Assembly: GCF_913060805.1 (NCBI RefSeq)
Contig: NZ_CAJXTC010000013.1
Location: 1-64,000, forward strand
Direction: 5' to 3'
Source of the DNA: an uncultured Draconibacterium sp.
GTDB taxonomy: Bacteria; Bacteroidota; Bacteroidia; Bacteroidales; Prolixibacteraceae
Length of the DNA: 64,000 bases
In this document: positions 11,801-41,661 of the stretch, one piece after another
Position numbering within the stretch: position 1 is the first letter of the stretch
Layout: each line of letters begins with the position of its first letter
Position numbers and translations under genes: made by a program
Notes under the pieces: model-generated
Databases searched by the model: none
The model's input: the letters and a program-made list of their open reading frames with translations, nothing else
What the model was told of the DNA's origin: nothing

Positions 11801-11864
11801 TAATTGGGAAATCAACTATCCGGCAGTAAGAACAGTAGTTTTCGGTATTAACCTTACTCTATAA
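8805..11864 (+). CDS. SusC-family TonB-dependent outer-membrane receptor
   Basis: Seen: 1019 aa with a signal peptide, a carboxypeptidase-regulatory-like domain (about 45-120), then the TonB-box region VVVVGYGTQKK, a plug domain (140-250) and a 22-strand barrel to the C-terminal FGINLTL strand. Known: with SusD it imports oligosaccharides across the outer membrane using TonB energy. It is followed after 11 bases by susD. The ligand is presumably the polysaccharide attacked by the adjacent GH16, GH43, GH2 and GH88 enzymes. Confidence 0.96.
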   Translation: MKKKSKLNQCYFSNGILKTMALALMLIIVHGTAAFAGSGTALQEKSITGRVVSTSGESIPGVSILVKGTTHGTISDIDGNFTLSDVRSEDILVFSFIGMKEVEVTVGDQTNLEVTMEDAVIGVDEVVVVGYGTQKKSDITGSVSSVSEERLAKIPVSNVMQAVQGAVSGVSVTQVSSIPGEAPQVLVRGGGSLTASTEPYVVVDGIPISKMGGSINDINPNDIKSIEILKDASATAIYGMNGANGVILITTKSGKSSKPTIKYSGYLGVEEFANIPEMVSTDELLARYAEGNRINGSPLYEAPVKYQYEVENYKNGHTIDWIDEVSQTGIQQNHNISISGGSENLSYYISGDLLDQKGVVKGYNYKRNSIRTNIDAQVTSYLKIGTNSSIVYHNRDGGRANLLNAEAMSPYGRMYEDDGTYTIYPMFGETLWANPMLPTTTSPERRQFNVNLNGFAYVTFGDIWKPLTGLTYRLNAGHSTIQSRNSNYTGQSVNDLLGTATISRSETQAYTIENILRYDYDVNKHHIDLTGVYSSQERVYNTNWAQASDFVNDELGWDRMQAGASSSVSSYADRYAAISQMGRLNYSYDSRYLFTVTVRRDGSSVFADGMKYGTFPSVALGWNIRHEGFMANAEKITNLKLRLSYGKSGNEAVSVYRTFTTMADRQIPFGGSTNIAMVTDRLGNSDLSWETKESFNLGLDFGFFNNRINGSLDVYSANNSDLLLSRKLPSASGFGSVTANIGETSTKGIELTLNTVNVATTNFKWNSSIVFSNSKSEITELYGDGLDDIGSGWFLGEPIGVIRDYKKIGIWQEDEITNGDHLDWDPVAKPGDVKVADISGPDGVPDGVITDDDRVILGQTAPKWTGGLTNTFAYKNFTLNVFIQTVQGAMRNNSHIGMAADEIERRNSFAEIGYWTPENQSNEWRSLNKNSNPHGYGFPVKNNFTRIKDITLNYDVPQHLLDKAGISALSLYLSGRNLYTFTDWIGWDPEERDTQRGWNNWEINYPAVRTVVFGINLTL

Positions 11865-11875
11865 AAGAATACAAA

Positions 11876-13588: not shown

Positions 13589-13658
13589 AATTTCAACCAA
13601 CTAAACAAATAAAACCACGATGGTTCTAGATAGTTAGTTAGATTAAGTTATTAAGTAA

Positions 13659-13687
13659 GAAATGCCCTTCGGGGCATTTCTTTTTCT
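13659..13687 (+). terminator. Intrinsic terminator after susD
   Basis: A perfect 9-bp stem (GAAATGCCC/GGGCATTTC) with a TTCG tetraloop is followed by TTTTTCTT. It is the clearest terminator of the window and lies 70 bases after the susD stop codon. Confidence 0.85.
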
Positions 13688-13725
13688 TATACTTGTTACT
13701 GTTTTCATTTATAACACAATTCATC

Positions 13726-14940
13726 ATGTTAAAAACCACTTCCTTTTTTGTCATCCTAATTCTGTTTTTCAGTTGTAAAACTCCCGACAACAAAAGTCAA
13801 TCATTTAGTTCAGTGATCGACCAGTCGCTTGAAGTTGCGACAGAACAAAGCCTACGTATGGCCGAATCACTGAAGGATCAACCGGAAAAACTTCCTCAAA
13901 CGATTGACAAAAACGGCAATTTGGTTACCTGTAATTCGGATTGGTGGGTAAGCGGATTTTTCCCTGGCGTTTTGTGGTATTTGTATGAAAATTCACCGTC
14001 CGACTCGTTAAAACACTGGGCAGAAAACTTCACCCTGCGTGTTGAAGACCAGCAATACACCACCGACAATCACGATGTTGGTTTTATGATCTTTTGCAGT
14101 TTTGGAAACGGTTACCGCATCACCGGAAATCCGGAATACAAAGAAGTGATCCATAACGCATCCAAGTCGTTGATCACACGTTTTAATCCAACCATTGGCT
14201 GCATTCGTTCGTGGGATTACGCCAGCTGGAGCGCTCAGTGGCAATACCCGGTTATTATCGATAACATGATGAATCTGGAATTGCTGGAATGGAGCGCCAA
14301 AACATTTAACGACACAACATTTAGCCACGTGGCACGCACACACGCCAACACAACTATGCAAAACCATTTCCGTGACGATTACAGTAGCTACCACGTAATT
14401 TCGTACGACACCATTACCGGTGCAGTTGAAAAGAAAAACACTTCGCAGGGATATTCTGATGAATCGGCATGGGCACGTGGCCAGGCATGGGGACTTTACG
14501 GTTACACCATGATGTACCGCGAAACAGGCGATAAAACCTATTTAGAACAGGCTGAACATATTGCCGATTTTATCATCAATCACCCCAATTTACCGGAAGA
14601 CAAAATTCCTTACTGGGATTTTAATGCACCGGATATTCCCAATGCTTTGCGCGATGCTTCGGCAGGAGCAATTATGTGTTCTGCCCTACTCGAATTAAGC
14701 GCTTATGTTTCGCCAGAAAAAGCAGCATCATATCTCGATATTGCCGAAACACAGCTTCGCAGTTTAAGTTCCGATAAGTATTTGGCAAAAGCCGGAGAGA
14801 ATGCAAACTTCATTCTAAAACACAGCGTTGGACATATGCCGAACAAAAGCGAGGTTGACGTTCCGTTAAGCTACGCCGATTATTATTTTGTTGAAGCTTT
14901 AATGCGTGCTAAAGAGTTGATAAAAGAAGGTAAGTTGTAA
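13726..14940 (+). CDS. Glycoside hydrolase family 88 (unsaturated glucuronyl hydrolase), lipoprotein
   Basis: Seen: 404 aa from the ATG at 13726. A TTG 33 bases upstream is in frame, but the lipobox LFFSC follows the ATG at the right distance. It is an (alpha/alpha)6 barrel with DNHDVGFM and IIDNMMNLELL, carrying the two catalytic Asp residues of the family. It also has YSDESAWARGQAWGLYGY and DASAGAIMCSALLEL. Known: GH88 hydrates the 4,5-unsaturated uronic acid left by polysaccharide lyases. This implies that a lyase, not present in this window, acts on the target glycan. Transcription continues the direction of susD beyond a terminator. Confidence 0.9.
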   Translation: MLKTTSFFVILILFFSCKTPDNKSQSFSSVIDQSLEVATEQSLRMAESLKDQPEKLPQTIDKNGNLVTCNSDWWVSGFFPGVLWYLYENSPSDSLKHWAENFTLRVEDQQYTTDNHDVGFMIFCSFGNGYRITGNPEYKEVIHNASKSLITRFNPTIGCIRSWDYASWSAQWQYPVIIDNMMNLELLEWSAKTFNDTTFSHVARTHANTTMQNHFRDDYSSYHVISYDTITGAVEKKNTSQGYSDESAWARGQAWGLYGYTMMYRETGDKTYLEQAEHIADFIINHPNLPEDKIPYWDFNAPDIPNALRDASAGAIMCSALLELSAYVSPEKAASYLDIAETQLRSLSSDKYLAKAGENANFILKHSVGHMPNKSEVDVPLSYADYYFVEALMRAKELIKEGKL

Positions 14941-14949
14941 TAAAAACAA

Positions 14950-14976
14950 ACAGCAGCAAGAGAACCTCGCTGCTGT
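14950..14976. terminator. Terminator between convergent GH88 and SorE-like genes
   Basis: ACAGCAGC and GCTGCTGT form an 8-bp stem with a smaller inner GAG/CTC stem. A T-rich stretch follows on the plus strand. It lies 10 bases after the GH88 stop codon. Confidence 0.55.
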
Positions 14977-15046
14977 CGTTTACGTTTATTTTCAAGTTTA
15001 TATCTAACACCCGATTGATGTCAACACACCAATCTTCGATTAAATT

Positions 15047-16321
15047 CTACAATTTATCGCCATTTTCCAACAAATAGGCTTCTGCTTCCACATTCCATAA
15101 TCCCATGTACTTTTTGCAAAGCTTATCCAGCTCGGCATACACCAGATTATCTTTTCCTTTCTCTTCGAATTCAGCAATTGCTGTAAGCGGGAAATCAAAA
15201 TGTGTATAAATCAATTTCTTACCACCAGGAATATTTGGCAGATTCAAGGTTGCTTCAGGCACTGCATTTAAACCACCAATGTGGGTTACCAGTCCTGCCG
15301 GATCCAGTCCTGCGGTCATAATTTCCAGTGCTTCGTTCATGTCGTCGGTGTTACCGCCTGAAGTTCCTACAATGTGTGTATAAGCGTAGTGTACGTTATA
15401 GAAATTCATTTTTGCCGAGAACTCGGTGTTCGATGGGCCGGCAAAAAAGTTAAGACAACCGTCGAAACCAAGAATTGCATCGCCCTGCTCAACAACCGGA
15501 GCTACCGGAGCAAACACAAATACATCGTCGTAACCTGTACCGCCGGTTAAATCTTTTAATCCGGCCACAGGATCAGCCATTTCTGCGGTATTGATGTATT
15601 TCAATTCAATGCCACGTTCTTTGGCGAACTCAACAGTGTAAAGCTCAGCTGCACGATCCAATCTTGTCTGATCGATATCGGTAACTACCATCAACGATGG
15701 TTTTCTGTCCTCACGGCGCAAAACGTAATTGATGGCTGCCAGTCCCATTGGACCAACACCTGCTAAAATTGCCATTTTACCACCTTCAACAATTTCCATT
15801 TTGTGCACGTAGCTTCCGGCTGTTGTGTGGTAATTGGCATGCATAGCACCAATAACACAGCTTAACGGCTCAGCTAGCGAGGCGGGATAATACCCCGGTC
15901 CTTCGTAAGCCAACAAACAATCCTGCACCAACACATCTTTTGGAATGATCACATAAGTTGCATCACCACCAATGTATTTGTACGAATAACCCGGCGCACT
16001 CAAAACACCCACCGGACCATCTTCGTAATAAATTGCCGGCTGAATCGAGAATTTCTGTCCAGACTTAAACTTATCCTGCCAGTTTGCTCCCACTTCAACA
16101 ATCTCACCGGCAAACTCGTGACCGATCATAATCGGATTTTCGGCAATATCATCCGGAATACGTTTGTGATCGCTTGCCTGGTTGGCAGCTTTGTAACTCG
16201 ACATACAAAGGCTGTCGGTTATTACTTTGGCCAAAATCTCATCATCACTGATTGCCGGTAATTCAAACTCCTCAACACGAAGGTCTTTTTTACCGTATAA
16301 TCGAACTGCTTTTGTCTTCAT
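15047..16321 (-). CDS. Zinc-dependent medium-chain dehydrogenase, L-sorbose-1-phosphate reductase (SorE)-like
   Basis: Seen: 424 aa with a GroES-like domain holding zinc-site residues C39 (SLCMSS) and H68-E69 (GHEFAGE). A Rossmann domain (about 185-330) carries LAGVGPMGLAA. A late block NFFAGPSN...VGTSGGNTDDM closely resembles enterobacterial SorE. Known: SorE reduces L-sorbose 1-phosphate to D-glucitol 6-phosphate with NAD(P)H. The real substrate here is uncertain, most likely a phosphorylated or free ketose. It is the last gene of the minus-strand cassette, 228 bases after the aldolase/SDR gene. It may therefore be less tightly co-transcribed. Confidence 0.82.
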   Translation of the reverse strand: MKTKAVRLYGKKDLRVEEFELPAISDDEILAKVITDSLCMSSYKAANQASDHKRIPDDIAENPIMIGHEFAGEIVEVGANWQDKFKSGQKFSIQPAIYYEDGPVGVLSAPGYSYKYIGGDATYVIIPKDVLVQDCLLAYEGPGYYPASLAEPLSCVIGAMHANYHTTAGSYVHKMEIVEGGKMAILAGVGPMGLAAINYVLRREDRKPSLMVVTDIDQTRLDRAAELYTVEFAKERGIELKYINTAEMADPVAGLKDLTGGTGYDDVFVFAPVAPVVEQGDAILGFDGCLNFFAGPSNTEFSAKMNFYNVHYAYTHIVGTSGGNTDDMNEALEIMTAGLDPAGLVTHIGGLNAVPEATLNLPNIPGGKKLIYTHFDFPLTAIAEFEEKGKDNLVYAELDKLCKKYMGLWNVEAEAYLLENGDKL

Positions 16322-16454
16322 TTTCTATTTATTTTTTCAGATTGAAAAAAGATTGAATCAGATTGATTAAGATTGAAACTTCTATCTCGAAACTCGTGAC
16401 TCGAAGCTTTCTTAATCACTCATCGTTAATCATTAATTCTTCCCATCTTTTGCC

Positions 16455-16540
16455 TTTTTACTTTCTACTTTTGCTCCCGACGCTTCGGTCGGGATTTCGA
16501 CCAGCACAGCTGTTCTCAACTTTTTACTTTCTACTTTTGC
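16455..16540. repeat. 20-bp direct repeats flanking a hairpin in the intergenic gap
   Basis: The 20-mer TTTTTACTTTCTACTTTTGC occurs at 16455-16474 and 16521-16540. Between them is a hairpin TCCCGAC/GTCGGGA at 16475-16494. Such mosaics of hairpins and direct repeats are common intergenic elements in Bacteroidota. Function unknown. Confidence 0.7.
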
Positions 16541-16549
16541 CTTTAACTT

Positions 16550-18511
16550 CTAGTGCAACATCGACTGACCGCCCGAAATTGGCAGCGCCTGTCCTGTTTC
16601 ATTCTCCTGGTCGATCAGGTATAAAATTCCTTTCACCACGTCTTTTGGCGAACATCCTTTTCCAAGAGGCACCTGGTCTAAATAAAACTGCTTCACATCT
16701 TCGATTGTTTTTGCTCCCGGCACTTTTCCTGCATTCAGATACTGAATGAACAAACCGTTTTCAGGATCGCTCCACAGCGGACCTTCGTAAAAGTTACCCG
16801 GACAAACCGAATTCACTTTAATTTTCTCTGGTGCCAGCTCTAGTGCAAACGACTGAGTAAGCCCAATTCCACCAAATTTACCACCGGCATATGCAAAATT
16901 CTTCTTACTGCCTTTTAAGCCCGATTTTGAGTTGATCTGAATGATATCAGAGTAATAATCCGGTTTAAAAGCATTTTGAAGTTTCAATATTTTAGAAGCT
17001 ACTTTTGTGCAATAGAAATAAGCGTTGTAGTTTATCTTGGTAACAAACTCGAAATTCTCCGGAGTCATTTCATCCAGACCGCCTGCACGCAACACCCCCG
17101 CATTGCTAACAAATACATCCAGACCTCCAAAAGTAGCAACAGTTTCTTTCATCAAATTGGCCAAACTGTCCATATCGGCCACGTTGGTTTTTACAAAAAT
17201 CGCCCGGTTATTGCCTTTCATCGCGGCCAGTGCAGCAGCCGTTTTATTTCCAACTTCTTCGTTAATGTCGGCAACAACAATATTGGCACCTTCTTCGGTT
17301 AAATGGCGGGCAATACCTTCGCCAAATCCCATGGCAGCGCCGGTTACAATAATGGTTTTATTCTGAACGCGGCCAACCGATGTTCCGGCAGCAATTTTGC
17401 GGCGGTAATTCTCCACCTCCCATGTATCGATAAATGCAATTTGCTCGGGTGTCATAAAATGCTGACCACCGAATGATTCCGAATAAGCACTGATCTTCAT
17501 TGCATCTTCGTAAACATCAAGAATGGTGTCGCACTGCGCAGCATGATCGCCAACCGCCAACAAACCAATTCCTTTCAGAACAATTACTTTTGGAGCAAAT
17601 CCGTTAGCTGAAATAAAAGCCGTAATCTTGTCTTTGGCCTCTTTCAAAAGATCTTCAACGTTTTCGGTATTTTCGATAAAAACGTATTTCGATTTGCAAT
17701 AAACGATCAGATCCGGCGTAAATGGCTTGGCCACTTTTTCAAAGGCCGCTGCATCTTTTGCAAATTGAGCAATTACTGCATTGTTCCGAAGTTTGAGTGT
17801 TTTAATTTCCTCTTCAGAAACCATCATTCGGATAGCTGGAATAAATTCAGCAATATCATCGCGGATTGGAAGTGCTTCTTCCGACAGTTCCTCTTTCAAT
17901 ACACCGTTCAGTTTTGCAAATACATCGTTGTAGATGGTTTCAATTTCATCGATTGAATCGGCAGCCACAAAAATTCCATGATTTTGCAAAAAGATTATCT
18001 GAGCGGCTTTTCCTTTTTCAGCTTTGAATTTGGACAACTGCTTTTCAACCTCTTTAAACAGCACATAACCCGGATCGATATAAGGAATATAAACCACCTG
18101 GTCACCAAACAATTCACCGAGGTATTTTTCAACCTCGTTGCCACACATTAGTCCATTTACTTTTGTTGGATGCAGGTGCACCACATAAGCGTAATCGATA
18201 ACATCGTGCATTGATGTTTCCACCGACGGACGGCGATCTTTTGTGATGGTAGCTTCCATCAAATCGTCTTTGATCTGGCGTTCGCGCTCAAACGAATCTG
18301 AGCTGTATGTTTTTTCCGAGATCAGCCCAAGTTTTTTGCGGTCAAGTTTTGCAAAACCATCTTCGGTAATTGTTGCAAGCGCATGACCACTGGCTTTCAC
18401 CCAAATATTTTCGTCGTTTTTATAAGAAGTGTTTCCACCTCCGGCAATAACCATCTCCGGATTTTTGCCATAGAATTGTGATATCTTAATAAGATTTTCT
18501 AATCCTTCCAT
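16550..18511 (-). CDS. Bifunctional class II aldolase / short-chain dehydrogenase
   Basis: Seen: 653 aa. The N-terminal class II aldolase (about 1-370) carries VETSMH (E98), HLHP (H112, H114) and QNHG (H178), the zinc-site pattern of the family. The C-terminal SDR domain (about 380-653) has TGAAMGFGEGI, S528 and YAGGK (Y541, K545). Known: the RhaEW/YuxG group has this architecture, cutting rhamnulose 1-phosphate to DHAP and L-lactaldehyde and oxidising the aldehyde, but those are usually about 690 aa. This shorter member lies outside the rhamnose operon, so the substrate could be another deoxy-ketose phosphate. It is co-directional with the PHP gene 103 bases upstream. Confidence 0.85.
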   Translation of the reverse strand: MEGLENLIKISQFYGKNPEMVIAGGGNTSYKNDENIWVKASGHALATITEDGFAKLDRKKLGLISEKTYSSDSFERERQIKDDLMEATITKDRRPSVETSMHDVIDYAYVVHLHPTKVNGLMCGNEVEKYLGELFGDQVVYIPYIDPGYVLFKEVEKQLSKFKAEKGKAAQIIFLQNHGIFVAADSIDEIETIYNDVFAKLNGVLKEELSEEALPIRDDIAEFIPAIRMMVSEEEIKTLKLRNNAVIAQFAKDAAAFEKVAKPFTPDLIVYCKSKYVFIENTENVEDLLKEAKDKITAFISANGFAPKVIVLKGIGLLAVGDHAAQCDTILDVYEDAMKISAYSESFGGQHFMTPEQIAFIDTWEVENYRRKIAAGTSVGRVQNKTIIVTGAAMGFGEGIARHLTEEGANIVVADINEEVGNKTAAALAAMKGNNRAIFVKTNVADMDSLANLMKETVATFGGLDVFVSNAGVLRAGGLDEMTPENFEFVTKINYNAYFYCTKVASKILKLQNAFKPDYYSDIIQINSKSGLKGSKKNFAYAGGKFGGIGLTQSFALELAPEKIKVNSVCPGNFYEGPLWSDPENGLFIQYLNAGKVPGAKTIEDVKQFYLDQVPLGKGCSPKDVVKGILYLIDQENETGQALPISGGQSMLH

Positions 18512-18614
18512 TTTTTCTTTTTCGCTTTGAATTTTGCTCGCAGATTTCGCGGATCAGCGCAGATTTACTTCTTCTATTTCTCTGCGAATATCTGCGCTAT
18601 CTGCGTGAAATTTT
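18512..18614. repeat. Intergenic inverted-repeat element
   Basis: Arms of the AGCGCAGAT/ATCTGCGCT type (about 18559-18599) with repeated CTGCG words lie between two cassette genes. They could form an mRNA hairpin that separates expression of the PHP gene from the aldolase/SDR gene. Confidence 0.45.
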
Positions 18615-19832
18615 TTATGCGATCATTTCTTTTATAACCGCGTTTCCAAGAGTGATCAGGTCGGCTACCGAACGTTCGGTACGATCCCCATTTGCCTTAA
18701 CAAATCCCTCTTCCCCATTGGTTTTTAAATATTGATGAGCTGCAATTACACAAGCTCCATCGTACGATACTTTTTTCAAATCATCAGGCAGAATATCTTC
18801 CCCATCAACTTTCACCTCGATTGGGAAAACTCCCGGCGTATTGTGCTCCGATCCCAATGAAATCACATATCCTTTTTTAGTAAAGTATTTGATGAACTCG
18901 CGCAATTTCTGCACTGAATTCCTCGATGGAATCAGTTCGATCATGTGCACATTCATTGCTTTCAACTGCTCGTCCATAAATTCCCAATCCTTCTCGAAAC
19001 CGGTAATCAGATTTCCTTTTCGGTCGTCGAGTAAAACAGGATAACATGGAATACCACCGGCATCCAAAATATACTCGCTTATGCGCTGTACCGGCGGGAA
19101 TGATGCAGGCGATTCAGGAACAAATGCAGAACCTCCGGCTTTTAATAATTTACCGCGAATTTCGTTTTCAATTGCAGGAATATCCTCAGGATTCGATTTT
19201 GGCTCCACATCAAAAAGTTCGGTGTAGAACATCATTTTACCCGACTTTTTCGGATAATTCTCCTCCACCAAAGTACGAATGGCTGTTGCAATATGTCTTT
19301 CGCGCACCAGTTCTTTGGCGTATTTTGCCTTTACATCTTCGTAAGTAAGACTCATATCAGGGTAGATCGATTGCAAAAGATAGTTCACCTTTTCAATCAT
19401 CTGCTTCACCTGCTTCTGGCTTTCAGCAAAAAGCTCTTTCAAAAACTGCGCGTTTTCTTCCGAAACCCGGTAAGGATAATTCAGTCCTTTACCACTGAAA
19501 TAAATACGCCCCGGATTATTCGGATCGTTGATGGTAACATTGCGGCGCTGAAGCTCCGGAATCAATCCGATAAACTCAACATTAAACAATGGAAATACGC
19601 CGTTTTTTACCGCGTAATTATAGAATTCGTTATATCCGTCGGAAACAAAAAAGTCGTTAATTCCCAACACATCAACCTCTTCGTCTTTTGCCAGATCAAA
19701 AATCTGCGCAATATTATCGAAAGAGCTGAATGAGTAGGGTGTGTGGATGTGGCCGTTTACGTGAGGAACGCTAACATCGCCTCCAATTCGCATTAATGTT
19801 TCAATATCCGGGTATTCTTTTAGAAAATTCAT
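18615..19832 (-). CDS. PHP-domain metal-dependent protein, function unknown
   Basis: Seen: 405 aa starting with a PHP motif NGHIHTPYS (H28, H30), then GINDFF (D60) and a late SLGSEHNTPG block, giving the metal ligands of the polymerase-and-histidinol-phosphatase fold. No polymerase or other domain is attached. Known: stand-alone PHP proteins hydrolyse phosphomonoesters such as histidinol phosphate, or cyclic phosphodiesters. Inference: in this operon it might dephosphorylate a sugar-phosphate intermediate, but nothing in the sequence identifies the substrate. It lies 96 bases downstream of E1. Confidence 0.7.
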   Translation of the reverse strand: MNFLKEYPDIETLMRIGGDVSVPHVNGHIHTPYSFSSFDNIAQIFDLAKDEEVDVLGINDFFVSDGYNEFYNYAVKNGVFPLFNVEFIGLIPELQRRNVTINDPNNPGRIYFSGKGLNYPYRVSEENAQFLKELFAESQKQVKQMIEKVNYLLQSIYPDMSLTYEDVKAKYAKELVRERHIATAIRTLVEENYPKKSGKMMFYTELFDVEPKSNPEDIPAIENEIRGKLLKAGGSAFVPESPASFPPVQRISEYILDAGGIPCYPVLLDDRKGNLITGFEKDWEFMDEQLKAMNVHMIELIPSRNSVQKLREFIKYFTKKGYVISLGSEHNTPGVFPIEVKVDGEDILPDDLKKVSYDGACVIAAHQYLKTNGEEGFVKANGDRTERSVADLITLGNAVIKEMIA

Positions 19833-19928
19833 ATCAGTTATTAGTTATTGGTTAAAAAGCAGGTGTGAATATAAAAAATCCTTTCCTACCAAAACTTATC
19901 CACACCATGCTTTTCAAACTAACCAAGA

Positions 19929-22397
19929 TTATATACCTAACTTATTTCTACGGATTTGCTCGGCATTTGTATAGTTGTTTTTCACAACGTGACCTTTCAG
20001 CGGAACGATCTTCTCGTGAATCGCATCCAGGTACCAATCAACCTGTGGGAAGAAATACTGTTCCAATTCGTACGCCGGAGTGATCCAGTTACGCGAACCA
20101 ACAACTACAGGAGGTGCATCCAACTCGTCGAATGCAAGCTCAGTAATATTTCTTGCCATATCATTCAGGAATGAACCGCGTGAGTTGGCATCGCCGGAAA
20201 TGATAATTCTTCCGGTCTTTTTAACCGACTCCAATACTTTTTCGTAGTTGAAAGGAACAATTGAACGGGCATCGATAACTTCTGCTTCCATTCCGTATTC
20301 TTCTTTCAGTTTATCAGCGGCTTCAAGAGCACGATACAATGTTGCACCAATGGTAAGAATTGTAATGTCTTTTCCTTCGCGTTTTACATCCGGCTCGCCA
20401 AATGGAATTTCGTAATATTCTTCCGGCACACCACCTTCGTGGAATTGCTCGCCAATGTCGTAAATACGCTGGCTTTCAAAGAAAATTACAGGATCAGTTC
20501 CCTGCAGTGCAGTGTTCATCAATCCTTTTGCATCGTATGGAGTTACCGGGAATACAACTTTCAATCCCGGAATATGTGCCACCAATGATGTCCAGTCTTG
20601 AGAGTGTTGTGCACCATATTTCGATCCAACGGAAACGCGAACTACAACCGGCATTTTAATTACGTTACCCGACATGGCCTGCCATTTAGGCATCTGGTTG
20701 AAAACCTCATCACCACAACGTCCAAGGAAATCGCAATACATGATCTCAGGAATAACGCGTCCACCACACATGGCGTAACCGATGGCTGTTCCAATGATCG
20801 ACGCCTCCGAAATTGGTGAGTTAAATAAACGGTTGTATGGCAGCGCTTCGGTCAAACCGCGGTAAACGGCAAAAGCGCCACCCCAGTCGCGGTTTTCTTC
20901 ACCGTATGCTACCAAGGTTGGATCTTTGTAAAAACGATCAACAACAGCTTCAAAAATACCGTCACGCAACTGGTATTGTTTAATTTTCGAGAATGGTTTT
21001 CCGTTGGCATCAAATGCAAAACGTTCTTTTTTAGAAAGCTGTTTCACACGTGGATTTTCTTCCATTGGGTGATTCACCTCAACTTCTCGGTCTTCCATTT
21101 TATCCAGGCTCTCGTTCGAGAACATCATGTCACCGATCAGTTCAGGATATTTTTCCATATCCATGTGAGGAGAAACTTTTTCATCGATAGCCAGTTTCAT
21201 CGCGTATTTCATCAACTCAACGATGTCGGCTTTAATATCTTCAAGCTCTGCTTCTTTTGCAACTCCGGCTCCAACCAGCTCGCTTGCATACGAAGCGATA
21301 CAATCCTGTTTTTCCCATGCTTCAACTTCCTCTTTGCTACGATACGACGAAGCATCAGAAGGCGAGTGACCACTGTAACGGTAAGTTAAAACGTCTAACA
21401 GAACCGGACCTTTTTTGTCTTTCAGCAGTTCCATTTTGCGTTTGTACGCATCGATTACAGCCAGTGGATTGTAACCGTCAACGCGCTCGGCGTGCATACT
21501 GTCGCGGTTTACACCGGCACCAATACGAGCGGCAATGTCGTAACCCATAGTTTCACCACAGGTTTGTCCACCCATTCCGTACTGGTTATTCATGATATTG
21601 AAAATGATTGGCAGACCACCTTTGTAAGCGCCTTCCCAAAGCTGCTCAAACTGGTCCATCGATGCAAAAGCCAGACCTTCCCAAACAGGACCGCAAGCCA
21701 TTGAAGCATCACCAATGTTGGCAACCACAATACCATCTTTTTTATTTACTTTTTTGAATAATGCAGCACCCACAGCGATATCGCCCGAACCACCAACAAT
21801 AGCGTTGTTCGGATATACGCCAAACGGTGTAAAGAAAGCGTGCATCGATCCACCTAAACCTTTATTGAAACCTGTTTCGCGGGCAAAAATCTCAGCCAGT
21901 GTTCCGTAAATAAGGAAACGGCGTGCCAATGATTTTACGTTGCCTTCGTGACCTTCTTTTACGATGTTCAGAATTGTACCATCAAAGAAGTTGGTCATTA
22001 CATCCATCAATTCGTCATCGCTCATTTTATGGATGGCCGACATACCTTTGGCCAAAATCTCGCCGTGAGAACGGTGCGAACCAAAAATAAAATCCTCTAC
22101 TCCCAGGTGATACGCCATACCAACTGCAGCCGATTCCTGTCCGATTGACAAGTGAGCAGGGCCAGGATGGTTGTACTCGATTCCTTCGTATTCCCCTTTG
22201 ATTTTAATGAGATTCAACATGGTTTCAAACTCACGAATCAGTGACATATCATGGAAGATATTGATGAATTCGTCATTCGAAAAGTTAGCTTTTTCCTCTT
22301 CAATACTTTTGTTGTATTGATTTACAGGTATTTCTTTGAATTGAATTGAACCCGGTTTTCTTACTTCAACCGGATCAATAAATTGCGACTTAGGCAT
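19929..22397 (-). CDS. Fused alpha/beta 2-oxoacid dehydrogenase E1 component (thiamine diphosphate-dependent)
   Basis: Seen: 822 aa. The alpha half (about 40-450) contains HRSHGEILAKG and GLGGSMH. Its ThDP motif has GDA at 229-231 and NNQYG at 270-274. The beta half (about 470-822) contains YGEENRDWGGAF, SPISEASIIG and VVGSRNW. Two stretches are longer than in ordinary acetoin/pyruvate E1: about 40 residues at 127-165 and about 12 residues inside the ThDP motif. Known: E1 decarboxylates a 2-oxoacid and passes the acyl group to lipoyl-E2. The substrate may be pyruvate, acetoin or a hydroxylated oxoacid. It lies 149 bases downstream of lpd, with E2 and the PHP gene in the same direction. Confidence 0.88.
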   Translation of the reverse strand: MPKSQFIDPVEVRKPGSIQFKEIPVNQYNKSIEEEKANFSNDEFINIFHDMSLIREFETMLNLIKIKGEYEGIEYNHPGPAHLSIGQESAAVGMAYHLGVEDFIFGSHRSHGEILAKGMSAIHKMSDDELMDVMTNFFDGTILNIVKEGHEGNVKSLARRFLIYGTLAEIFARETGFNKGLGGSMHAFFTPFGVYPNNAIVGGSGDIAVGAALFKKVNKKDGIVVANIGDASMACGPVWEGLAFASMDQFEQLWEGAYKGGLPIIFNIMNNQYGMGGQTCGETMGYDIAARIGAGVNRDSMHAERVDGYNPLAVIDAYKRKMELLKDKKGPVLLDVLTYRYSGHSPSDASSYRSKEEVEAWEKQDCIASYASELVGAGVAKEAELEDIKADIVELMKYAMKLAIDEKVSPHMDMEKYPELIGDMMFSNESLDKMEDREVEVNHPMEENPRVKQLSKKERFAFDANGKPFSKIKQYQLRDGIFEAVVDRFYKDPTLVAYGEENRDWGGAFAVYRGLTEALPYNRLFNSPISEASIIGTAIGYAMCGGRVIPEIMYCDFLGRCGDEVFNQMPKWQAMSGNVIKMPVVVRVSVGSKYGAQHSQDWTSLVAHIPGLKVVFPVTPYDAKGLMNTALQGTDPVIFFESQRIYDIGEQFHEGGVPEEYYEIPFGEPDVKREGKDITILTIGATLYRALEAADKLKEEYGMEAEVIDARSIVPFNYEKVLESVKKTGRIIISGDANSRGSFLNDMARNITELAFDELDAPPVVVGSRNWITPAYELEQYFFPQVDWYLDAIHEKIVPLKGHVVKNNYTNAEQIRRNKLGI

Positions 22398-22440
22398 AAT
22401 ATTTTGTTTTATTAATTTTTACTTGTTTTTCTTTTATTCA

Positions 22441-22545
22441 GACCTGGATCCGTCAGCTGACGGACAGGGTGACGTTCAGAACATGATTACAAGGACAATA
22501 CCAAGTACGTCATGCTGAACTCGTTTCAGCATCTCTGCTTTTACG
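22441..22545. repeat. REP-like hairpin cluster between lpd and E1
   Basis: A perfect 14-bp palindrome CCGTCAGCTGACGG lies at 22450-22463. A hairpin ATGCTGAA/TTCAGCAT with a 5-nt loop lies at 22512-22532. These words recur as intergenic elements in many Bacteroidota genomes (known from general experience). They would fold in the cassette mRNA and may tune E1 relative to E2-E3. Confidence 0.65.
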
Positions 22546-22546
22546 A

Positions 22547-23908
22547 TCAGTGACCGAAACTAAAAACGGTTTCTTTAAATATCTCAGAAACGGTTGGATG
22601 TGGGAACACCACTTCTTCCATTTCTTTCAGTGTCATTTCGGCTTCAATGGCCATGCAGGCGCCGTAGATCATTTCACTCGATGGATTTCCGATCATGTGA
22701 ACTCCCAGTACTTCGCCATATTTTGCTCCTACCAACACTTTGCACGATCCGCTGCCGCCTTCGTTCTCGGCGACAAACCTTCCGGCATAAGCCATTGGCA
22801 GTTCGGCAATTTTATAATCGATTCCTTTTGCTTTTGCTGTTTCTTCGGTCAATCCAACACCCGAAATTTCAGGATTGGTGTAAACCACTCCCGGAATGGC
22901 ATTGTAGCGCATTTTATCCGGGCGACCTGACAGGTTGTTTACCACTACTTCACCTTCGCGACTGGCAGTGTGTGCCAACAATGAGAAACCTGTTACATCG
23001 CCGGCTGCATAAACATTAGGAATGTTTGTGCGCATTTTTTCATCGACTTTGATTCCGCCTTTGAATAATTCAACGCCCAAATTCTCCAGACCAAAACCAG
23101 TAGTTACCGGCTTGCGGCCAACGCTCATTAATATCTTATCACCTTCGATCTCTGTTGTTTTACCATCTTTTTCGAAGCTTACTTTTGTCCCGTCAACTTT
23201 GGTAACTTTTGACGACAAATTGAACTCGATGCCTTTTTTAGCGTACATCTGACGCAACATAGCACTCTGTCCTTTGTCCATTCCGGTCAGTATCTCATCC
23301 AGCATTTCAATAATGGTAACTTTCGTTCCAAGGCTGTTAAAAATACTGGCGAACTCCATACCGATAACACCTCCACCAATGATCACCAGTGATTTTGGCT
23401 GCTCTTTCAGCTGCAAGATCTCACGATTAGTCAGTACCTCTTCATTACCCTGAACTCCGGGAATTGGGGGCACAAAAGCTTCCGATCCGGTACAGATCAT
23501 AAGGTTGGCAGCACTATAAGTTTTACTACCTGCTTCGATCTCAATACCTTCGGCACTTCTCTTTTGTATCATTGCTGCATCGTTGACTACCTCCACGTTA
23601 AACTGCTTCATTTTCATGCCAACGCCACCAACCAGTTTCTTCACCACTTTATTCTTACGGGCCATCATTTTATCGAAGCTAAACGACAGATCGTTCGCTT
23701 CCACACCGTATTTACTTCCGCTTTTTGCGCTATCGTAAATTTTGGCTCCATAAAGCAATGTTTTTGTAGGAATACAACCTTCGTTCAAACAAACACCGCC
23801 CAGTTCTTTCTTCTCGAAAAGAACCACTTTCAGTCCCTTTGCTCCGGCTCTTTCAGCGGCAACATATCCGCCCGGTCCGGCACCTATTATTGCTAAATCG
23901 TACTTCAT
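22547..23908 (-). CDS. lpdA: Dihydrolipoyl dehydrogenase (E3)
   Basis: Seen: 453 aa from the ATG at 23908; a TTG six codons upstream would overlap E2 and is less likely. The FAD motif is GAGPGGYVAA (9-18), the redox-active disulfide is GGVCLNEGCIPTK (C40, C45), and an NAD-binding GGGVIGMEFAS follows. The C-terminal dimerisation domain carries the active-site HPTVSE block. Known: it reoxidises dihydrolipoamide on E2 and produces NADH. It starts 7 bases after the E2 stop codon, so the two are translationally linked. Its presence here gives the complex a dedicated E3. Confidence 0.95.
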   Translation of the reverse strand: MKYDLAIIGAGPGGYVAAERAGAKGLKVVLFEKKELGGVCLNEGCIPTKTLLYGAKIYDSAKSGSKYGVEANDLSFSFDKMMARKNKVVKKLVGGVGMKMKQFNVEVVNDAAMIQKRSAEGIEIEAGSKTYSAANLMICTGSEAFVPPIPGVQGNEEVLTNREILQLKEQPKSLVIIGGGVIGMEFASIFNSLGTKVTIIEMLDEILTGMDKGQSAMLRQMYAKKGIEFNLSSKVTKVDGTKVSFEKDGKTTEIEGDKILMSVGRKPVTTGFGLENLGVELFKGGIKVDEKMRTNIPNVYAAGDVTGFSLLAHTASREGEVVVNNLSGRPDKMRYNAIPGVVYTNPEISGVGLTEETAKAKGIDYKIAELPMAYAGRFVAENEGGSGSCKVLVGAKYGEVLGVHMIGNPSSEMIYGACMAIEAEMTLKEMEEVVFPHPTVSEIFKETVFSFGH

Positions 23909-23915
23909 TTCGGTA

Positions 23916-25229
23916 TTAATAGTCAAAGGTTAAGTTTTCAATTTCAATAGCTACCTGCTTCACAAAACGTGTTGCCATTCCGCCATCCAGTGCCTGATGA
24001 TCGTAAGTCAAACTCAAGCCCATGTAAGGCACAAATCCGTAAACTCCGTCGCCCATATCTTTTGGTCGTGGAACGATTGTATTTACTCCCAGAATAGCTA
24101 CCTGTGGAAGGTTAATAACTGGTGTAAACATCTCAACACCGTAGTTTCCAAGGTTCGATACTGTGAATGATGCAGCCTCAGAAGAAAGCAATTCAGGATC
24201 GATACTTCCGGTACGGCAAGCGTCGGCAACTTCTTTAAACTGATTGCACAAACCGGTAATAGAAAGGTCGTCTGCATTTTTAATTACAGGAACCATCAAA
24301 CCGCGGTCGGTATCAACGGCCAGTCCAAGATGTACTTTATTAAAATATTTTACACTGTCGCCAAGGAAATGTGCATTTACATCAGGGAATTGTTTCAGCG
24401 CTTTGATAACGGCAAAACAAACCATATCGTTCAATGTAATATTCGGAGCACCTTCTTTGGCTTTAATTTCTTTACGCAGGGCCAATAATCTTCTGGCATC
24501 GGCACCTAAATGGTGTGTTAACTGCGCCGAATTCTGCAACGACTGGTGCATTGCTTTGGCGATCAGCTTGCGGATATGAGGCATTTTCTTGATCTCGAAA
24601 TCATCGGCATAAACCGGATTCGTTCCAAGATCGGATGCTTTGACAGTTCCTGCCAATCCACTGCCTTCTCCTGCTGCTTCAAGACCTTCAGCTTTGGCAA
24701 CCTCTTTAGCAAGTGGCGACATTTTTGGCTGCGATGATTCATAAGCTTTAACATCACGTTCGATTACGCGTCCACCAGGACCCGAACCTTCAATCGATTC
24801 ATAAGGAACCGCGTCTTTTTCAGCAAGATTTTTGGCGCGTGGAGAAATTTTCACTTTTTCGCCTTCAGCTTTTTCTTTCAGAACAACCTTAAGCTCTTCT
24901 TTTTCCTCGGCAGGTTTTTCTTCAACTTCTTCTTTTACTTCAGCCGCTGCGGCAGGTGCGGTTCCGGCAGAAAATTCATCGATGTTCTCGCCCGGTTGGC
25001 CAATTACGCCAATAGTTTGCAAAACAGGAACCTCATCTCCTTCTTCGCAAAAAACAGCCAATAAAACACCATCTTCCTCAGCTTCCTGCTCAAATGATGC
25101 TTTATCAGTTTCATAAGCAAAGAGCGCTTCGCCCTTTTTCACTTCCTCTCCTACTTCTTTCGTCCATTCGGTAAAGATGCAGGATTCAACAGACTGCCCC
25201 TGTCGAGGCATTATTATCGGTGTAGCCAT
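23916..25229 (-). CDS. Dihydrolipoamide acyltransferase (E2) with two peripheral-subunit-binding domains
   Basis: Seen: 437 aa from the ATG at 25229; the 33 upstream in-frame residues cover the promoter and operator and are not coding. The lipoyl domain (1-80) has ETDKA (K43). After an Ala/Glu-rich linker come two similar E1/E3-binding segments (about 128-163 and 169-202), then a catalytic domain (210-437) with DHQALDG (H411, D415). Known: E2 transfers the acyl group to CoA and forms the complex core. It is the first gene of the cassette and directly controlled by the upstream operator. The lone-lipoyl, double-PSBD layout is somewhat unusual. Confidence 0.93.
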   Translation of the reverse strand: MATPIIMPRQGQSVESCIFTEWTKEVGEEVKKGEALFAYETDKASFEQEAEEDGVLLAVFCEEGDEVPVLQTIGVIGQPGENIDEFSAGTAPAAAAEVKEEVEEKPAEEKEELKVVLKEKAEGEKVKISPRAKNLAEKDAVPYESIEGSGPGGRVIERDVKAYESSQPKMSPLAKEVAKAEGLEAAGEGSGLAGTVKASDLGTNPVYADDFEIKKMPHIRKLIAKAMHQSLQNSAQLTHHLGADARRLLALRKEIKAKEGAPNITLNDMVCFAVIKALKQFPDVNAHFLGDSVKYFNKVHLGLAVDTDRGLMVPVIKNADDLSITGLCNQFKEVADACRTGSIDPELLSSEAASFTVSNLGNYGVEMFTPVINLPQVAILGVNTIVPRPKDMGDGVYGFVPYMGLSLTYDHQALDGGMATRFVKQVAIEIENLTFDY

Positions 25230-25247
25230 AATTTTATTAATTTTCGA

Positions 25248-25278
25248 CAAACTTATATGACACAACTTGTATTTACAA
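25248..25278 (-). promoter_or_regulatory. Promoter of the E2-lpd-E1 cassette
   Basis: On the minus strand TTG (25276-25278) is followed by 20 bases and then TAAGTTTG (25248-25255), an excellent fit to the Bacteroidota sigma consensus. The predicted start lies a short distance before the E2 ATG at 25229. The -33 TTG is inside the palindrome at 25264-25281. Confidence 0.75.
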
Positions 25279-25281
25279 GTT
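25264..25281. promoter_or_regulatory. GntR-type operator 1 (overlaps the cassette promoter)
   Basis: Inverted repeat AACTTGTA-TT-TACAAGTT. Its 16-bp core ACTTGTATTTACAAGT has the ACTnGTnTnnACnAGT form known for DasR/HutC-family operators. It covers the -33 element and part of the spacer of the E2 promoter, so a bound repressor would block the cassette. Confidence 0.75.
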
Positions 25282-25329
25282 AATTCTTTGTTTTTATTTA
25301 AACTCCTAATATACAACCTTTTCAACACA

Positions 25330-25355
25330 TTTACAAGTAACTTGTAAATACATTT
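25330..25355. promoter_or_regulatory. GntR-type operator 2
   Basis: Inverted repeat TTTACAAGT-A-ACTTGTAAA (25330-25348) runs into ACTTGTAAATACATTT (25340-25355). That 16-mer matches the complement of operator 1 at 14 of 16 positions. A weaker third copy (11 of 16) is TTTTGTGTTTACATCT at 25362-25377. Together they span the divergent region and would allow looping or cooperative repression of both promoters. Confidence 0.7.
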
Positions 25356-25392
25356 TTTTAATTTTGTGTTTACATCTAAGGAGAAAATCGCT

Positions 25393-25400
25393 TATATTTG
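25393..25400 (+). promoter_or_regulatory. -7 element of the gntR-family gene
   Basis: TATATTTG matches TAnnTTTG and lies 24 bases before the GntR start codon at 25424. The -33 side is taken up by the weak third operator (25362-25377), which suggests autoregulation. Confidence 0.55.
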
Positions 25401-25423
25401 TCACTCGAGAAAAAAGAATCATT

Positions 25424-26143
25424 ATGCGTCTGAGCAAAAATCTACCACAATACAAAGTTGTTTACGAAATTATTCGCAAACACATATCAGATGGAGTTTA
25501 CTTAAAAGGAGACATTCTCCCATCGGAAAACGAACTTTGTGCGGTACATCAGACGACACGCCCAACGATACGAAAGGCACTCGACCGCCTGGTTCACGAA
25601 GGTTACATTAAAAAGAAACAGGGAAAAGGAAGTATTGTAATGGGCGTTCCGCAGGGTGTCGGAATTTTGTCTCTCTCAGGAACTACGAGTGCAGTGGGAC
25701 AGGAAAACCTAATCACGGAGATCATTGTAAAACCGGAGATCAGGCAGTGGGACACTACAAACCTGGCATATCCGCTGCTGAATGATGAGGAAGAGTTTGG
25801 CTGTATTTATTTCGAGCGACTGCGTATTATGAACAAGCAGCCTGTTTTTTACGATATTACTATGATGCCCAACATCAATCTACGTCGGTTTATCAGCCGG
25901 AACCTGGAGAACAAATCCTTGTTCAACATTTTACGCACCATGTACGACATAGAAGTTACCGGTGGCGAGCAGCGCTTGATGGCTATTCTTGCCGATAAAA
26001 ATATTCAGGAATACCTGAATGTAAAAGAAGGACATCCGATCCTTCACCTCAACCGTAAACTGGAAACCAGTCGCGAAGGCTTTTTTATCTATAGCCAGGT
26101 GTACTGCAACAGCGAGAAGTACGCTATTTTCGGTACTTTCTAA
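25424..26143 (+). CDS. GntR/HutC-family transcriptional regulator with UTRA domain
   Basis: Seen: 239 aa from the ATG at 25424; an in-frame ATG at 25364 would place 20 odd residues over the promoter. The winged helix-turn-helix (about 8-72) contains LPSENEL and TRPTIRKAL. A UTRA ligand domain (about 95-235) includes FERLRIMNKQPVFYD. Known: UTRA regulators bind small metabolites, often sugar phosphates, and release palindromic operators. Position and operator fit make it the repressor of the divergent E2-to-SorE cassette and of itself. The effector is unknown and would point to the pathway substrate. Confidence 0.92.
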   Translation: MRLSKNLPQYKVVYEIIRKHISDGVYLKGDILPSENELCAVHQTTRPTIRKALDRLVHEGYIKKKQGKGSIVMGVPQGVGILSLSGTTSAVGQENLITEIIVKPEIRQWDTTNLAYPLLNDEEEFGCIYFERLRIMNKQPVFYDITMMPNINLRRFISRNLENKSLFNILRTMYDIEVTGGEQRLMAILADKNIQEYLNVKEGHPILHLNRKLETSREGFFIYSQVYCNSEKYAIFGTF

Positions 26144-26718: not shown

Positions 26719-28014
26719 TTACGATAAAAATTTATTCCTTAAATCTTCGATTTGTTCCTGATTGATTGGAACAAGTTTTCCAAGTGAAGCTCCCATGGTA
26801 AGTGACTTGGCACTAAACTCTGCAACTTCCAATTTATCGAAGGTTCCCAGTAATTTGTCACCGGTTACCAAAACTGAATCGTTGTTGATGATCACTGCAG
26901 GAGTATTCTCTCCCAAAGTATTCAAAATGGTTTCTTCGCCAGCAAAATGCGATCCGAAAGGTACATTTGGAATGTCTTGCAGGAAGATCCAACTTTCAGG
27001 AATCGTACGTACATCGATTTTCTCACCGGTTACGCTATAAGCCATTAAATAAGGCGTTTGTGTAAGAATGATGGAATTGATATGTGGGAAACGTTTGTAA
27101 ATCTCCTGGTGCAGCCAGGTTGAGCGACTCGGAATTTTTCCGGGCTCGCGTTTACCATCTTTTATCTGCACAATATCTTTCAACTGAATATCCCAGCGCG
27201 CTACATTGGTTGGTGTAATCAGAAAATCATTGCCCTTCCAACGCACCGAAACTGTTCCGTACGAGCTAATCATCATTCCCTGATCGCAGGCACGCAAAAC
27301 AATACGTTGTATCATTTCACGAATCGCGCGTTCATCAGAAGGATACTCCACCTTCTTCATTTCCGGCAGCAACCTTGGAATCTGGCTTTCAAATGCATCG
27401 ATCTGCTCATCCGACAAATAATTAGGTTTGCCAATTGTGCTTCCGTTTATCAAGGTGCGGGCACAAAATTCCATGGTCTCGAAACGCTGATAGGCATCAC
27501 TTAAATCGGCACCGCCCACCACTGTTCCGTGGTTTTCCATAATTACCGCATTCACACCTTTTGCAAACTCATCGGCAATTACATCGCCCAACTCATTACT
27601 TCCGGGCAAAGCGTAAGGTGCGTAACCAATTGGCCCGCAAACGTGTTTTGCCTGCGGAATTACATTGGTATCAGGAATTTGACGAACAATACTAAACGAA
27701 ACCAATGCCGGCGGATGCGCGTGAATTACAGCCTTAATCTCCGGACGACATTTATAAATGGCAATATGAAACGGATATTCCGACGACGGCTTATGACGCC
27801 CCTCGATGCTTCCATCCCTTTTCACACAAATAATATCTGTCGCACGCAATGTCCCTTTATCAATGGCCGATGGCGTTACCCACACATCCCCATCGTCGTC
27901 AATTATCGAGATATTTCCGCCGGAAGTTGTAGTCAACCCCCCTTTGTAAATCTTATCAATAATCATGATGATCTGGTCGCGCGGATGCATCCATTTCGTA
28001 TTCAATTTTCTCAT
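26719..28014 (-). CDS. Tandem-domain class II aldolase/adducin protein of the rhamnose operon
   Basis: Seen: 431 aa made of two class II aldolase domains. The N-terminal one (about 10-200) keeps SGGNIS, E79, HAHPP (H98, H100) and ENHG (H162), a complete zinc site. The C-terminal one (about 225-425) has TQTP in place of HxHP and NNDS in place of NHG, so it has lost the metal ligands. Known: rhamnulose-1-phosphate aldolase is a class II aldolase of about 270 aa with one domain. Inference: by position, last in the rhaT-rhaA-kinase operon, it is the aldolase making DHAP and L-lactaldehyde, with a structural second half. It starts 47 bases after the kinase. Confidence 0.82.
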   Translation of the reverse strand: MRKLNTKWMHPRDQIIMIIDKIYKGGLTTTSGGNISIIDDDGDVWVTPSAIDKGTLRATDIICVKRDGSIEGRHKPSSEYPFHIAIYKCRPEIKAVIHAHPPALVSFSIVRQIPDTNVIPQAKHVCGPIGYAPYALPGSNELGDVIADEFAKGVNAVIMENHGTVVGGADLSDAYQRFETMEFCARTLINGSTIGKPNYLSDEQIDAFESQIPRLLPEMKKVEYPSDERAIREMIQRIVLRACDQGMMISSYGTVSVRWKGNDFLITPTNVARWDIQLKDIVQIKDGKREPGKIPSRSTWLHQEIYKRFPHINSIILTQTPYLMAYSVTGEKIDVRTIPESWIFLQDIPNVPFGSHFAGEETILNTLGENTPAVIINNDSVLVTGDKLLGTFDKLEVAEFSAKSLTMGASLGKLVPINQEQIEDLRNKFLS

Positions 28015-28061
28015 TTCGTATATTTTAAACTGTTAGCTGTCTGTTTGTAAAATGGCTAGTC

Positions 28062-41625: not shown

Positions 41626-41661
41626 AGTATTAGGCATAAAAAATAACATCCATAAAAAAAC

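Follow-up and report, generated by a model that had tools for sequence, protein, structure and literature searches.

The DNA stretch analyzed here, referred to as the window, comprises 64,000 nucleotides (nt) (NZ_CAJXTC010000013.1, positions 1-64,000; assembly GCF_913060805.1) of an uncultured Draconibacterium sp. (Bacteroidota; Bacteroidia; Bacteroidales; Prolixibacteraceae). Our analysis focused on a seven-gene cassette at 15047-26143, in which a divergent GntR gene is followed, on a single strand, by genes for E2, E3, a fused E1, a PHP protein, an aldolase/short-chain dehydrogenase (SDR) fusion and a SorE-like protein. Genes were derived from open reading frame (ORF) calls and domains from Pfam and NCBIfam; these agree with the gene order and strands given in an earlier sequence-only reading of the window, apart from small corrections of start positions. 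The regulator (25424..26143, + strand) is of the GntR/UTRA type, with Pfam scores for GntR (61.6 bits) and UTRA (61.1 bits) both above cut-off. All other genes are on the - strand. E2 (23916..25229, starting with ATG at 25229) has lipoyl, E3-binding and 2-oxoacid_dh acyltransferase domains and the lipoyl motif ETDKA, and E3, a dihydrolipoyl dehydrogenase (22547..23908), scored 496 bits against TIGR01350 (cut-off 409) and contains the redox motif GGVCLNEGCIP. These are followed by the fused E1 alpha/beta (19929..22397; 822 amino acids, aa), whose alpha part has a 42-residue insert after SHRSHGEILAKG, the stand-alone PHP-fold protein (18615..19832; 405 aa, Pfam PHP 31.7 bits), a RhaE-like class II aldolase half fused to a sorbitol-6-phosphate-dehydrogenase-like SDR half (16550..18511), and a SorE-like zinc dehydrogenase of the ketose-1-phosphate reductase family (15047..16321). 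The nearest named relative of the PHP protein was from D. orientale (92% identity), in which the cassette genes are arranged in identical order, and the source genome is Draconibacterium-like.

A perfect 16-bp palindrome, ACTTGTAAATACAAGT (25265..25280), is located in the gap between GntR and E2 and is a candidate GntR operator; a second palindrome, ATTTACAAGTTACTTGTAAAT (25329..25349), is found in the same gap. GntR adjoins E2 in many relatives, and we examined 46 such gaps (45 distinct sequences). The palindrome ACTTGTAWWTACAAGT was present with two or fewer mismatches in 45 of them (35 perfect, 9 with one mismatch and 1 with two), the exception (L047) having three mismatches, and the 7-mer ACTTGTA was present in 44. 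Within 2.3 Mb of loci, which overlap so that some matches are counted twice, 86 matches to ACTTGTAWWTACAAGT with up to two mismatches were detected: 79 were beside E2 or GntR, 4 were intragenic and 3 were at other promoters. These three belonged to the ORF preceding E2 (L046), a dispersed PHP gene (L083, a single case) and a RhaE-like gene (L204, genome G164), the last situated approximately 5 kb from RhaD2-RhaK. Downstream of SorE, a terminator-like stem of 13 pairs with a T-rich tail was found on the - strand (14949..14977); on the cassette strand no such stem was detected in the gaps between cassette genes, and there was one weak match inside E1. This pattern is compatible with one transcript, although it is no proof of it. 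Three of the gaps between cassette genes (16340-16540, 18515-18610 and 22400-22546) look repeat-like by eye and may have grown by insertion.

Occurrence of the cassette was analyzed in 198 genomes sampled evenly across the order, with a strong E1 match defined as at least 68% identity and the lists of E1 candidates scored in part. Strong E1 matches were found in 27 genomes, PHP in 25 and SorE in 25, and both the PHP and the SorE sets were nested in the E1 set (Fisher p about 1e-29, kinship ignored; because the genomes are related, p-values across genomes are not independent). The 27 include G058 and G112, counted on E1 fragments at contig ends; weak matches in G062, G087 and G171 (31-41% identity) were left out from the 30 initially considered. 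The cassettes of the genomes that had E1 without PHP (G058 and G112) or without SorE (G014 and G112) were cut by contig ends. The sequence-only reading had proposed a single pathway unit, an idea said to fail if comparable genomes carried the parts in unrelated places. Such separation onto different contigs was indeed found in G074, G178, G169 and G108, yet the parts still co-occur there. In addition, GTDB genomes scanned with the PHP alignment yielded at least 428 relatives, and loci were taken from the best 80, which by their titles are all Bacteroidota. Among 106 loci (with some genomes duplicated under different names and many contigs truncated), we recognized PHP in 104, aldolase/SDR in 95, SorE in 76, E1 in 67, E2 in 53, GntR in 48 and E3 in 14. 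The nested co-occurrence and the shared operator motif show that the cassette genes are one evolutionary unit. Together they would define a GntR-controlled module with its own candidate operator, conserved and unnamed, even if the exact substrate suggested below is wrong.

Optional neighbors across the loci included HAD phosphatases, a stand-alone class II aldolase, an aldo-keto reductase, a second zinc dehydrogenase and FGGY kinases, as well as mannitol-1-phosphate-dehydrogenase-like, fructose-6-phosphate-aldolase-like, fructokinase-like and weakly hexitol-phosphatase-like proteins. Except for one L-fuculokinase, all sugar-specific names of these neighbors were below curated cut-offs. Neither a dehydratase, an aldehyde dehydrogenase or a lactonase, nor any acetoin or butanediol gene, was recognized in the recurring gene set. 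No description of this set was found in the open literature searched, for which longer result lists were covered in part and subscription journals were mostly outside. PHP homologs were also observed off the cassette, at L036 (9358-10575) and L037 (9392-10618), next to an ABC-transporter ATPase and a small protein that is TatA-like by eye; these genomes keep E1 and SorE elsewhere. A comparison of PHP with plasmids gave no match at E 1e-5.

E1 was below the cut-offs of pyruvate dehydrogenase (PDH) models (NF006667, 239 of 321 bits; TIGR03182, 203 of 394 bits), and the five of seven candidates scored in the source genome contained no second E1 match at E 1e-60. With strong matches in only 27 of 198 genomes, it is, judging from its sequence, not the ordinary or housekeeping PDH of the order. 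The closest plasmid-borne relatives were fused E1s of rhizobia (52-54% identity), and the next near-full-length matches, in 60 rows sampled down the ranking, were at about 31-33%. Bacteroidota and rhizobial E1s formed one clade (support 100/100), which has the 42-residue insert after SHRSHGE..AKG of the alpha part (46 residues versus 4 in acetoin/PDH-type rows) and about seven additional residues ahead of it. Three acetoin-type E1s, of which two adjoin an annotated acetoin E2 and one was judged by a butanediol dehydrogenase neighbor, were 36% identical to the cassette E1, compared with 24-32% for three E1s annotated as PDH or branched-chain ketoacid dehydrogenase (BCKDH) and 35% for a C. difficile E1 pair of unassigned type. 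His residues of E1 alpha and beta, which we take to be catalytic, are common to the aligned 2-oxo-acid and acetoin enzymes. These comparisons show the cassette E1 as a distinct clade that appears nearest to acetoin dehydrogenase; instead of the 2-oxoacid dehydrogenase previously proposed, a finisher for a 2-oxo acid, it looks like an acetoin-type C-C-cleaving enzyme.

In Rhizobium and Agrobacterium, E1 is followed by a free lipoyl protein of 77-78 aa and an alpha/beta hydrolase, which corresponds to the C-terminal part of acetoin dehydrogenase E2 (NF011457, 177.7 bits, cut-off 307; 32.5% identity to AcoC). Neighbors of the rhizobial E1 loci were sugar transporters and kinases and, in some, a psicose-epimerase-like protein and fructokinase-like genes. 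No aldolase was annotated in these stretches, which are incompletely annotated; a transaldolase was 12 kb off in one. In Agrobacterium a lipoyl synthase gene was close to E1, likewise in one acetoin operon examined. Rhizobial plasmid loci that combine an E1 of this clade with the split acetoin-type E2 in a sugar-transport context are L146 (14001-17532), L147 (14001-17484) and L160 (14001-17523); pRL8 of Rhizobium johnstonii 3841 is one such plasmid. Separately, an E1-E2-E3 operon on a C. difficile plasmid (L164, 4998-9927) lies by a GH43 protein and a sugar-binding regulator and is a possible sugar-linked lipoyl complex.

The SorE-like protein was 50.6% identical over 100% of its length to annotated Klebsiella sorE, and its identity to yggP, as annotated on an E. 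coli plasmid, was 53.5%; the surroundings of SorE-like genes in E. coli and L. plantarum were little informative. For the SDR half, the best solved match was sorbitol-6-phosphate dehydrogenase (5o3z, E 4e-39), because of which we suggest that it works like this enzyme, and the score against the corresponding NCBIfam model NF009050 was 218.6 bits, below the cut-off of 307. The half was 28, 27 and 29% identical to the SDR halves of three RhaEW proteins and lacks the RhaW SKN/HLAR motif, having instead the sorbitol-6-phosphate-dehydrogenase-like NSKSG/KFGG/GLTQS. The SDR of the Klebsiella sorbose operon was ruled out as a close relative (27% identity). At the level of family resemblance, SorE and the SDR half belong to the ketose-1-phosphate/hexitol-phosphate dehydrogenase families. 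For the aldolase/SDR fusion, the top NCBIfam match was TIGR02632 (RhaEW), at 256.9 bits far below the cut-off of 567.75. The aldolase half was 24-29% identical to three RhaEW proteins, and residues E98, H112, H114 and H178, presumably the class II aldolase active site (Glu, HxH, His), were kept in all 14 full-length aligned rows. The cassette SDR occurred without an aldolase half in at least eight genomes (G118, G197, G164, G007, G096, G125, G058 and Puteibacter), and three of these have a separate aldolase half, which G125 and G096 carry between RhaI and RhaK and G007 close to its rhamnose genes. The possibility that the split gene is an SDR paralog was rejected, as the gene is the aldolase half. 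Aldolase-like genes of G164 and G058 were 24-28% identical to the cassette aldolase half, so that the name RhaE is loose for them.

The structural model of PHP was confident (predicted local distance difference test, pLDDT, 92.7). RNase AM was the nearest solved fold, with other PHP structures also leading the fold search, and only chance-level matches were found among sequences of solved structures. Residues H28, H30, N59, D60, E86, H180, H330 and H366, which may correspond to the canonical PHP metal motifs, were invariant in 24 rows, but the second motif is unusual in having an invariant Phe in place of the usual His after D60. Our guess is that PHP may be a phosphoesterase acting on a pathway intermediate.

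Directly beyond GntR, associated with the cassette but outside it, is a rhamnose operon (26719-32862). It encodes on the - strand a two-domain class II aldolase (26719-28014), an FGGY kinase that is RhaK by position (28062-29471), the L-rhamnose isomerase RhaI (29508-30770; PF06134, 612.8 bits) and RhaT (30834-31862; PF06379), and also includes an AraC-type regulator (Pfam). The kinase and transporter that the sequence-only reading had placed next to the cassette were therefore present, and the same adjacency was found in other genomes. The aldolase of this operon is a two-domain duplicated class II enzyme, not the E. coli-type RhaD, with strong matches in 14 of 198 genomes (rows below 60% identity left out). 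We found RhaI in 24 of 27 cassette genomes versus 21 of 171 others and FucI in 18 of 27 versus 23 of 171, with either present in 26 of 27. The same contig as the cassette was shared by RhaI in 5 of 24 genomes, FucI in 2 of 18 and the control AraA in 0 of 22; for RhaI or FucI this was 6 of 26, compared with 0 of 22 for AraA (p 0.025). In G164, FucP-FucK-FucI adjoins the cassette, and in L057 the L-fuculokinase is near it. In addition, lactaldehyde reductase FucO was over the cut-off in none of 27 cassette genomes (nearest score in G096, 495 versus 523 bits) compared with 11 of 21 RhaI-containing cassette-free genomes, or, counted by family, in 0 of 16 versus 8 of 16 (p 0.002). Only 1 of 18 cassette genomes with FucI had a class II aldolase 5 kb or less away from it, versus 11 of 23 other genomes, with some contigs ending near FucI. 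For example, in one same-family pair, the cassette-free G029 had RhaT-RhaI-kinase-two-domain aldolase and FucO, whereas G143 had the cassette with RhaT-RhaI-RhaK and neither FucO nor the two-domain aldolase. G118 (90% complete) has FucI without RhaI, and its only protein of aldolase fold found adjoins AraA and is therefore probably AraD. As a separate observation, in the cassette genomes' fucose loci L168, L190, L193-L196, L198 and L200-L203 FucI stands alone or with FucK and/or FucP, and no class II aldolase was found within 5 kb.

The known bacterial phosphorylative routes pass the deoxy end of rhamnose and fucose through lactaldehyde to propanediol or lactate. As our leading interpretation, which we put at somewhat below an even chance, the cassette would be a conserved catabolic module under GntR control that breaks down phosphorylated intermediates of the 6-deoxyhexoses L-rhamnose and L-fucose by a carbonyl shift followed by E1 cleavage. 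SorE would act on a 6-deoxyketose-1-phosphate, reducing its C2 ketone to give a deoxyhexitol phosphate, and the SDR half would oxidize it at the far carbon to the methyl ketone CH3-CO-CHOH-R, a 1-deoxyketose-6-phosphate and an acetoin-like acyloin. In the known pair, SorE and sorbitol-6-phosphate dehydrogenase convert L-sorbose-1-phosphate to fructose-6-phosphate, moving the carbonyl from C2 to the far end. The methyl ketone would have no entry into glycolysis but would contain a bond of the kind broken by acetoin dehydrogenase E1. E1 would split it, E2 would pass the acetyl group to CoA and E3 would reoxidize the lipoyl arm, giving acetyl-CoA and a tetrose-4-phosphate with neither a 1,2-propanediol branch nor CO2 loss. 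The RhaE-like aldolase half may supply or rearrange deoxyketose-1-phosphate through dihydroxyacetone phosphate (DHAP) and L-lactaldehyde. Provided that SorE and the SDR follow the stereochemistry known for their families, 6-deoxy-L-sorbose-1-phosphate would enter the pathway, and acetyl-CoA and D-erythrose-4-phosphate would be formed; all substrate assignments are our inference. The connection to rhamnose and fucose is drawn from gene adjacency, from the aldolase halves split off in or near rhamnose operons, from the operator match about 5 kb from RhaD2-RhaK in G164, from the rarity of a class II aldolase close to FucI and from the lack of FucO over its cut-off. The tetrose phosphate product fits the recurring fructose-6-phosphate-aldolase-like gene. 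Because PDH and acetoin dehydrogenase are reported to make 1-deoxyketoses (PMC3424233), the reverse cleavage of such compounds is plausible. With regard to the sequence-only reading, in which a ketose phosphate is cut, the aldehyde oxidized and an acyl-CoA formed, the ketose phosphate remains a plausible substrate class and a dedicated lipoyl complex yielding acyl-CoA is retained; the aldehyde oxidation step found no support, as the RhaW-type motif is missing from the SDR half, whose nearest match is sorbitol-6-phosphate dehydrogenase.

Several observations weigh against this interpretation. The association with AraA (22 of 27 versus 19 of 171) was almost as strong as that with RhaI, and the correlation of presence with RhaI is therefore confounded and largely reflects a sugar-eating life style. 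RhaI association was significant within both AraA-containing (p 0.037) and AraA-lacking (p 6e-6) genomes, but AraA association was likewise significant within RhaI-containing (p 0.035) and RhaI-lacking (p 0.0004) genomes. Cassette genomes G118 and G136 lack RhaI, and G169 (97% complete) has neither RhaI nor FucI. FucO was also not over the cut-off in 10 of 21 RhaI-containing cassette-free genomes. Besides, 13 of 24 RhaI-containing cassette genomes, including the source genome, keep another rhamnulose-phosphate-type aldolase. The remaining 11 have no E. coli-type or two-domain aldolase, but in 10 of these the RhaE-like half is present, either fused or as a split-off copy, and the idea that cassette genomes lack a rhamnulose-phosphate aldolase was therefore rejected; in the eleventh, G112, a contig end interrupts the cassette, and one short class II match was found in addition to an AraD-like one. 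Because another aldolase or the RhaE-like half is kept, the ordinary aldolase route can coexist with the cassette. No operator match was found upstream of the rhamnose operon in the window. The E1 tree had 17 rows, a long stem and deep nodes of only 82/84 and 82/70, and one PDH-annotated fused E1 joined its acetoin group. E2 in the window is of the ordinary acyltransferase type, not the lipoyl plus alpha/beta-hydrolase type; a probable acetoin complex of Enterococcus (L157) also has an acyltransferase-type E2. Finally, the PHP step, G169 and the retention of a bypassable aldolase half are not explained.

The cassette could also represent a RhaEW-like route, in which the aldolase half would cleave rhamnulose-1-phosphate or fuculose-1-phosphate to DHAP and L-lactaldehyde, the SDR half would oxidize lactaldehyde to lactate and, after conversion of the lactate to pyruvate, E1/E2/E3 would serve as a dedicated PDH. 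The RhaE-related aldolase half (24-29%), whose active-site residues are conserved in all 14 full-length rows, TIGR02632 as the top match, the split halves in or near rhamnose operons and the absence of FucO, which fits lactaldehyde oxidation, are all consistent with it, and RhaEW is biochemically validated as an aldolase/lactaldehyde dehydrogenase (PMC3870299). We consider this route unlikely, if still a serious competitor: the TIGR02632 score (257 bits) is far from its cut-off of 568, the SDR motif is sorbitol-6-phosphate-dehydrogenase-like and not RhaW, SorE and PHP would be left jobless, no lactate dehydrogenase was recognized in the cassette, and E1 is below PDH cut-offs and, occurring in 27 of 198 genomes, not a housekeeping PDH. 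Somewhat less probable is the same carbonyl shift and E1 cleavage on non-deoxy ketose phosphates of sorbose or tagatose type, which would give glycolyl-CoA and make the complex a lipoyl-linked counterpart of phosphoketolase. In its favor, non-deoxy hexitol phosphates are substrates of the SorE and SDR families, variants of the cassette have mannitol-1-phosphate dehydrogenase-, fructose-6-phosphate aldolase-, fructokinase- and weakly hexitol-phosphatase-like genes (all below cut-offs), the rhizobial relatives sit with psicose-epimerase-like and fructokinase-like genes, and G169 lacks RhaI and FucI. However, ordinary fructose-6-phosphate can pass into glycolysis without any such enzyme, adjacency favors rhamnose and fucose genes, and the absence of FucO would be unexplained.

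The complete E1/E2/E3 architecture, and the His residues that E1 alpha and beta have in common with 2-oxo-acid as well as acetoin enzymes, would agree with a true 2-oxo-acid dehydrogenase for a sugar acid, into which the other enzymes turn a polyol phosphate. Given that no dehydratase, aldehyde dehydrogenase or lactonase was recognized in the recurring set and that the nearest E1 relatives are of acetoin type, this appears improbable. That the genes are unrelated and mere neighbors is hardly credible: the parts are scattered in G074, G178 and G169, but the nested co-occurrence and the shared operator contradict it.

Additional features of the window were observed outside the cassette. A neighboring glycan-use locus (7854-14940) contains GH16, a SusC/SusD pair (Pfam) and a 415-aa protein without a Pfam match. 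Two 93-nt direct repeats, 301 nt apart and 90% alike, are located at 54917-55310, and a separate pair of 66-nt repeats (58522-58587), 3.5 kb apart, is 88% alike. A short interspersed repeat, CTGTCATTTCGAACAAAGTGAGAAATCTGT, which is repetitive extragenic palindrome (REP)-like by look, occurs in three copies (41661-41690, 42676-42705 and 44478-44507; 77-100%).

Returning to the proposed carbonyl shift and E1 cleavage, a methylpentose pathway not described before would be involved, a claim that we hold a shade more tentatively than the assignment of the module itself. The carbonyl would be transposed on a 6-deoxyketose phosphate and the resulting 1-deoxyketose phosphate split, by a separate-clade thiamine pyrophosphate (TPP)/lipoyl complex, into acetyl-CoA and tetrose phosphate, an acetoin-dehydrogenase-type machine having turned to sugar splitting in Bacteroidota and rhizobia. 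Polysaccharides of algae and plants are rich in rhamnose and fucose. If the proposal is true, sending the deoxy end straight to acetyl-CoA would change the carbon and energy accounting for Bacteroidota growing on such sugars, add a sugar-cleaving role to the 2-oxo-acid/acetoin dehydrogenase family and suggest a job for the fused "alpha-ketoacid dehydrogenase" genes on rhizobial plasmids.

Four known systems resemble the cassette in part. With the acetoin dehydrogenase complex (AcoA/AcoB/AcoC and E3) it probably shares the E1 family and would share the acyloin cleavage to acetyl-CoA, and the rhizobial relatives keep the lipoyl and alpha/beta hydrolase E2 of that complex; however, the cassette E1 is fused, only 36% identical and has the 42-residue insert, and sugar-phosphate enzymes surround it. 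RhaEW has a related aldolase half, the same kind of aldolase-SDR fusion and a rhamnose neighborhood, whereas the cassette SDR is sorbitol-6-phosphate-dehydrogenase-like, the fusion is far below the family cut-off and the set is larger, with SorE, PHP and E1/E2/E3. The L-sorbose operon is similar in SorE (50.6% identity) and in a reductase/dehydrogenase pair that would shift the carbonyl along a C6 phosphate. In contrast to that operon, the cassette has no phosphotransferase system (PTS), its SDR is 27% identical to the Klebsiella operon SDR and nearer to 5o3z, and a TPP/lipoyl complex is added. Finally, an isomerase, kinase and transporter of the same kind as in the canonical rhamnose/fucose route with FucO are found nearby, but FucO over the cut-off was found in 0 of 27 cassette genomes, and in 17 of the 18 with FucI no class II aldolase lay 5 kb or less from that gene.

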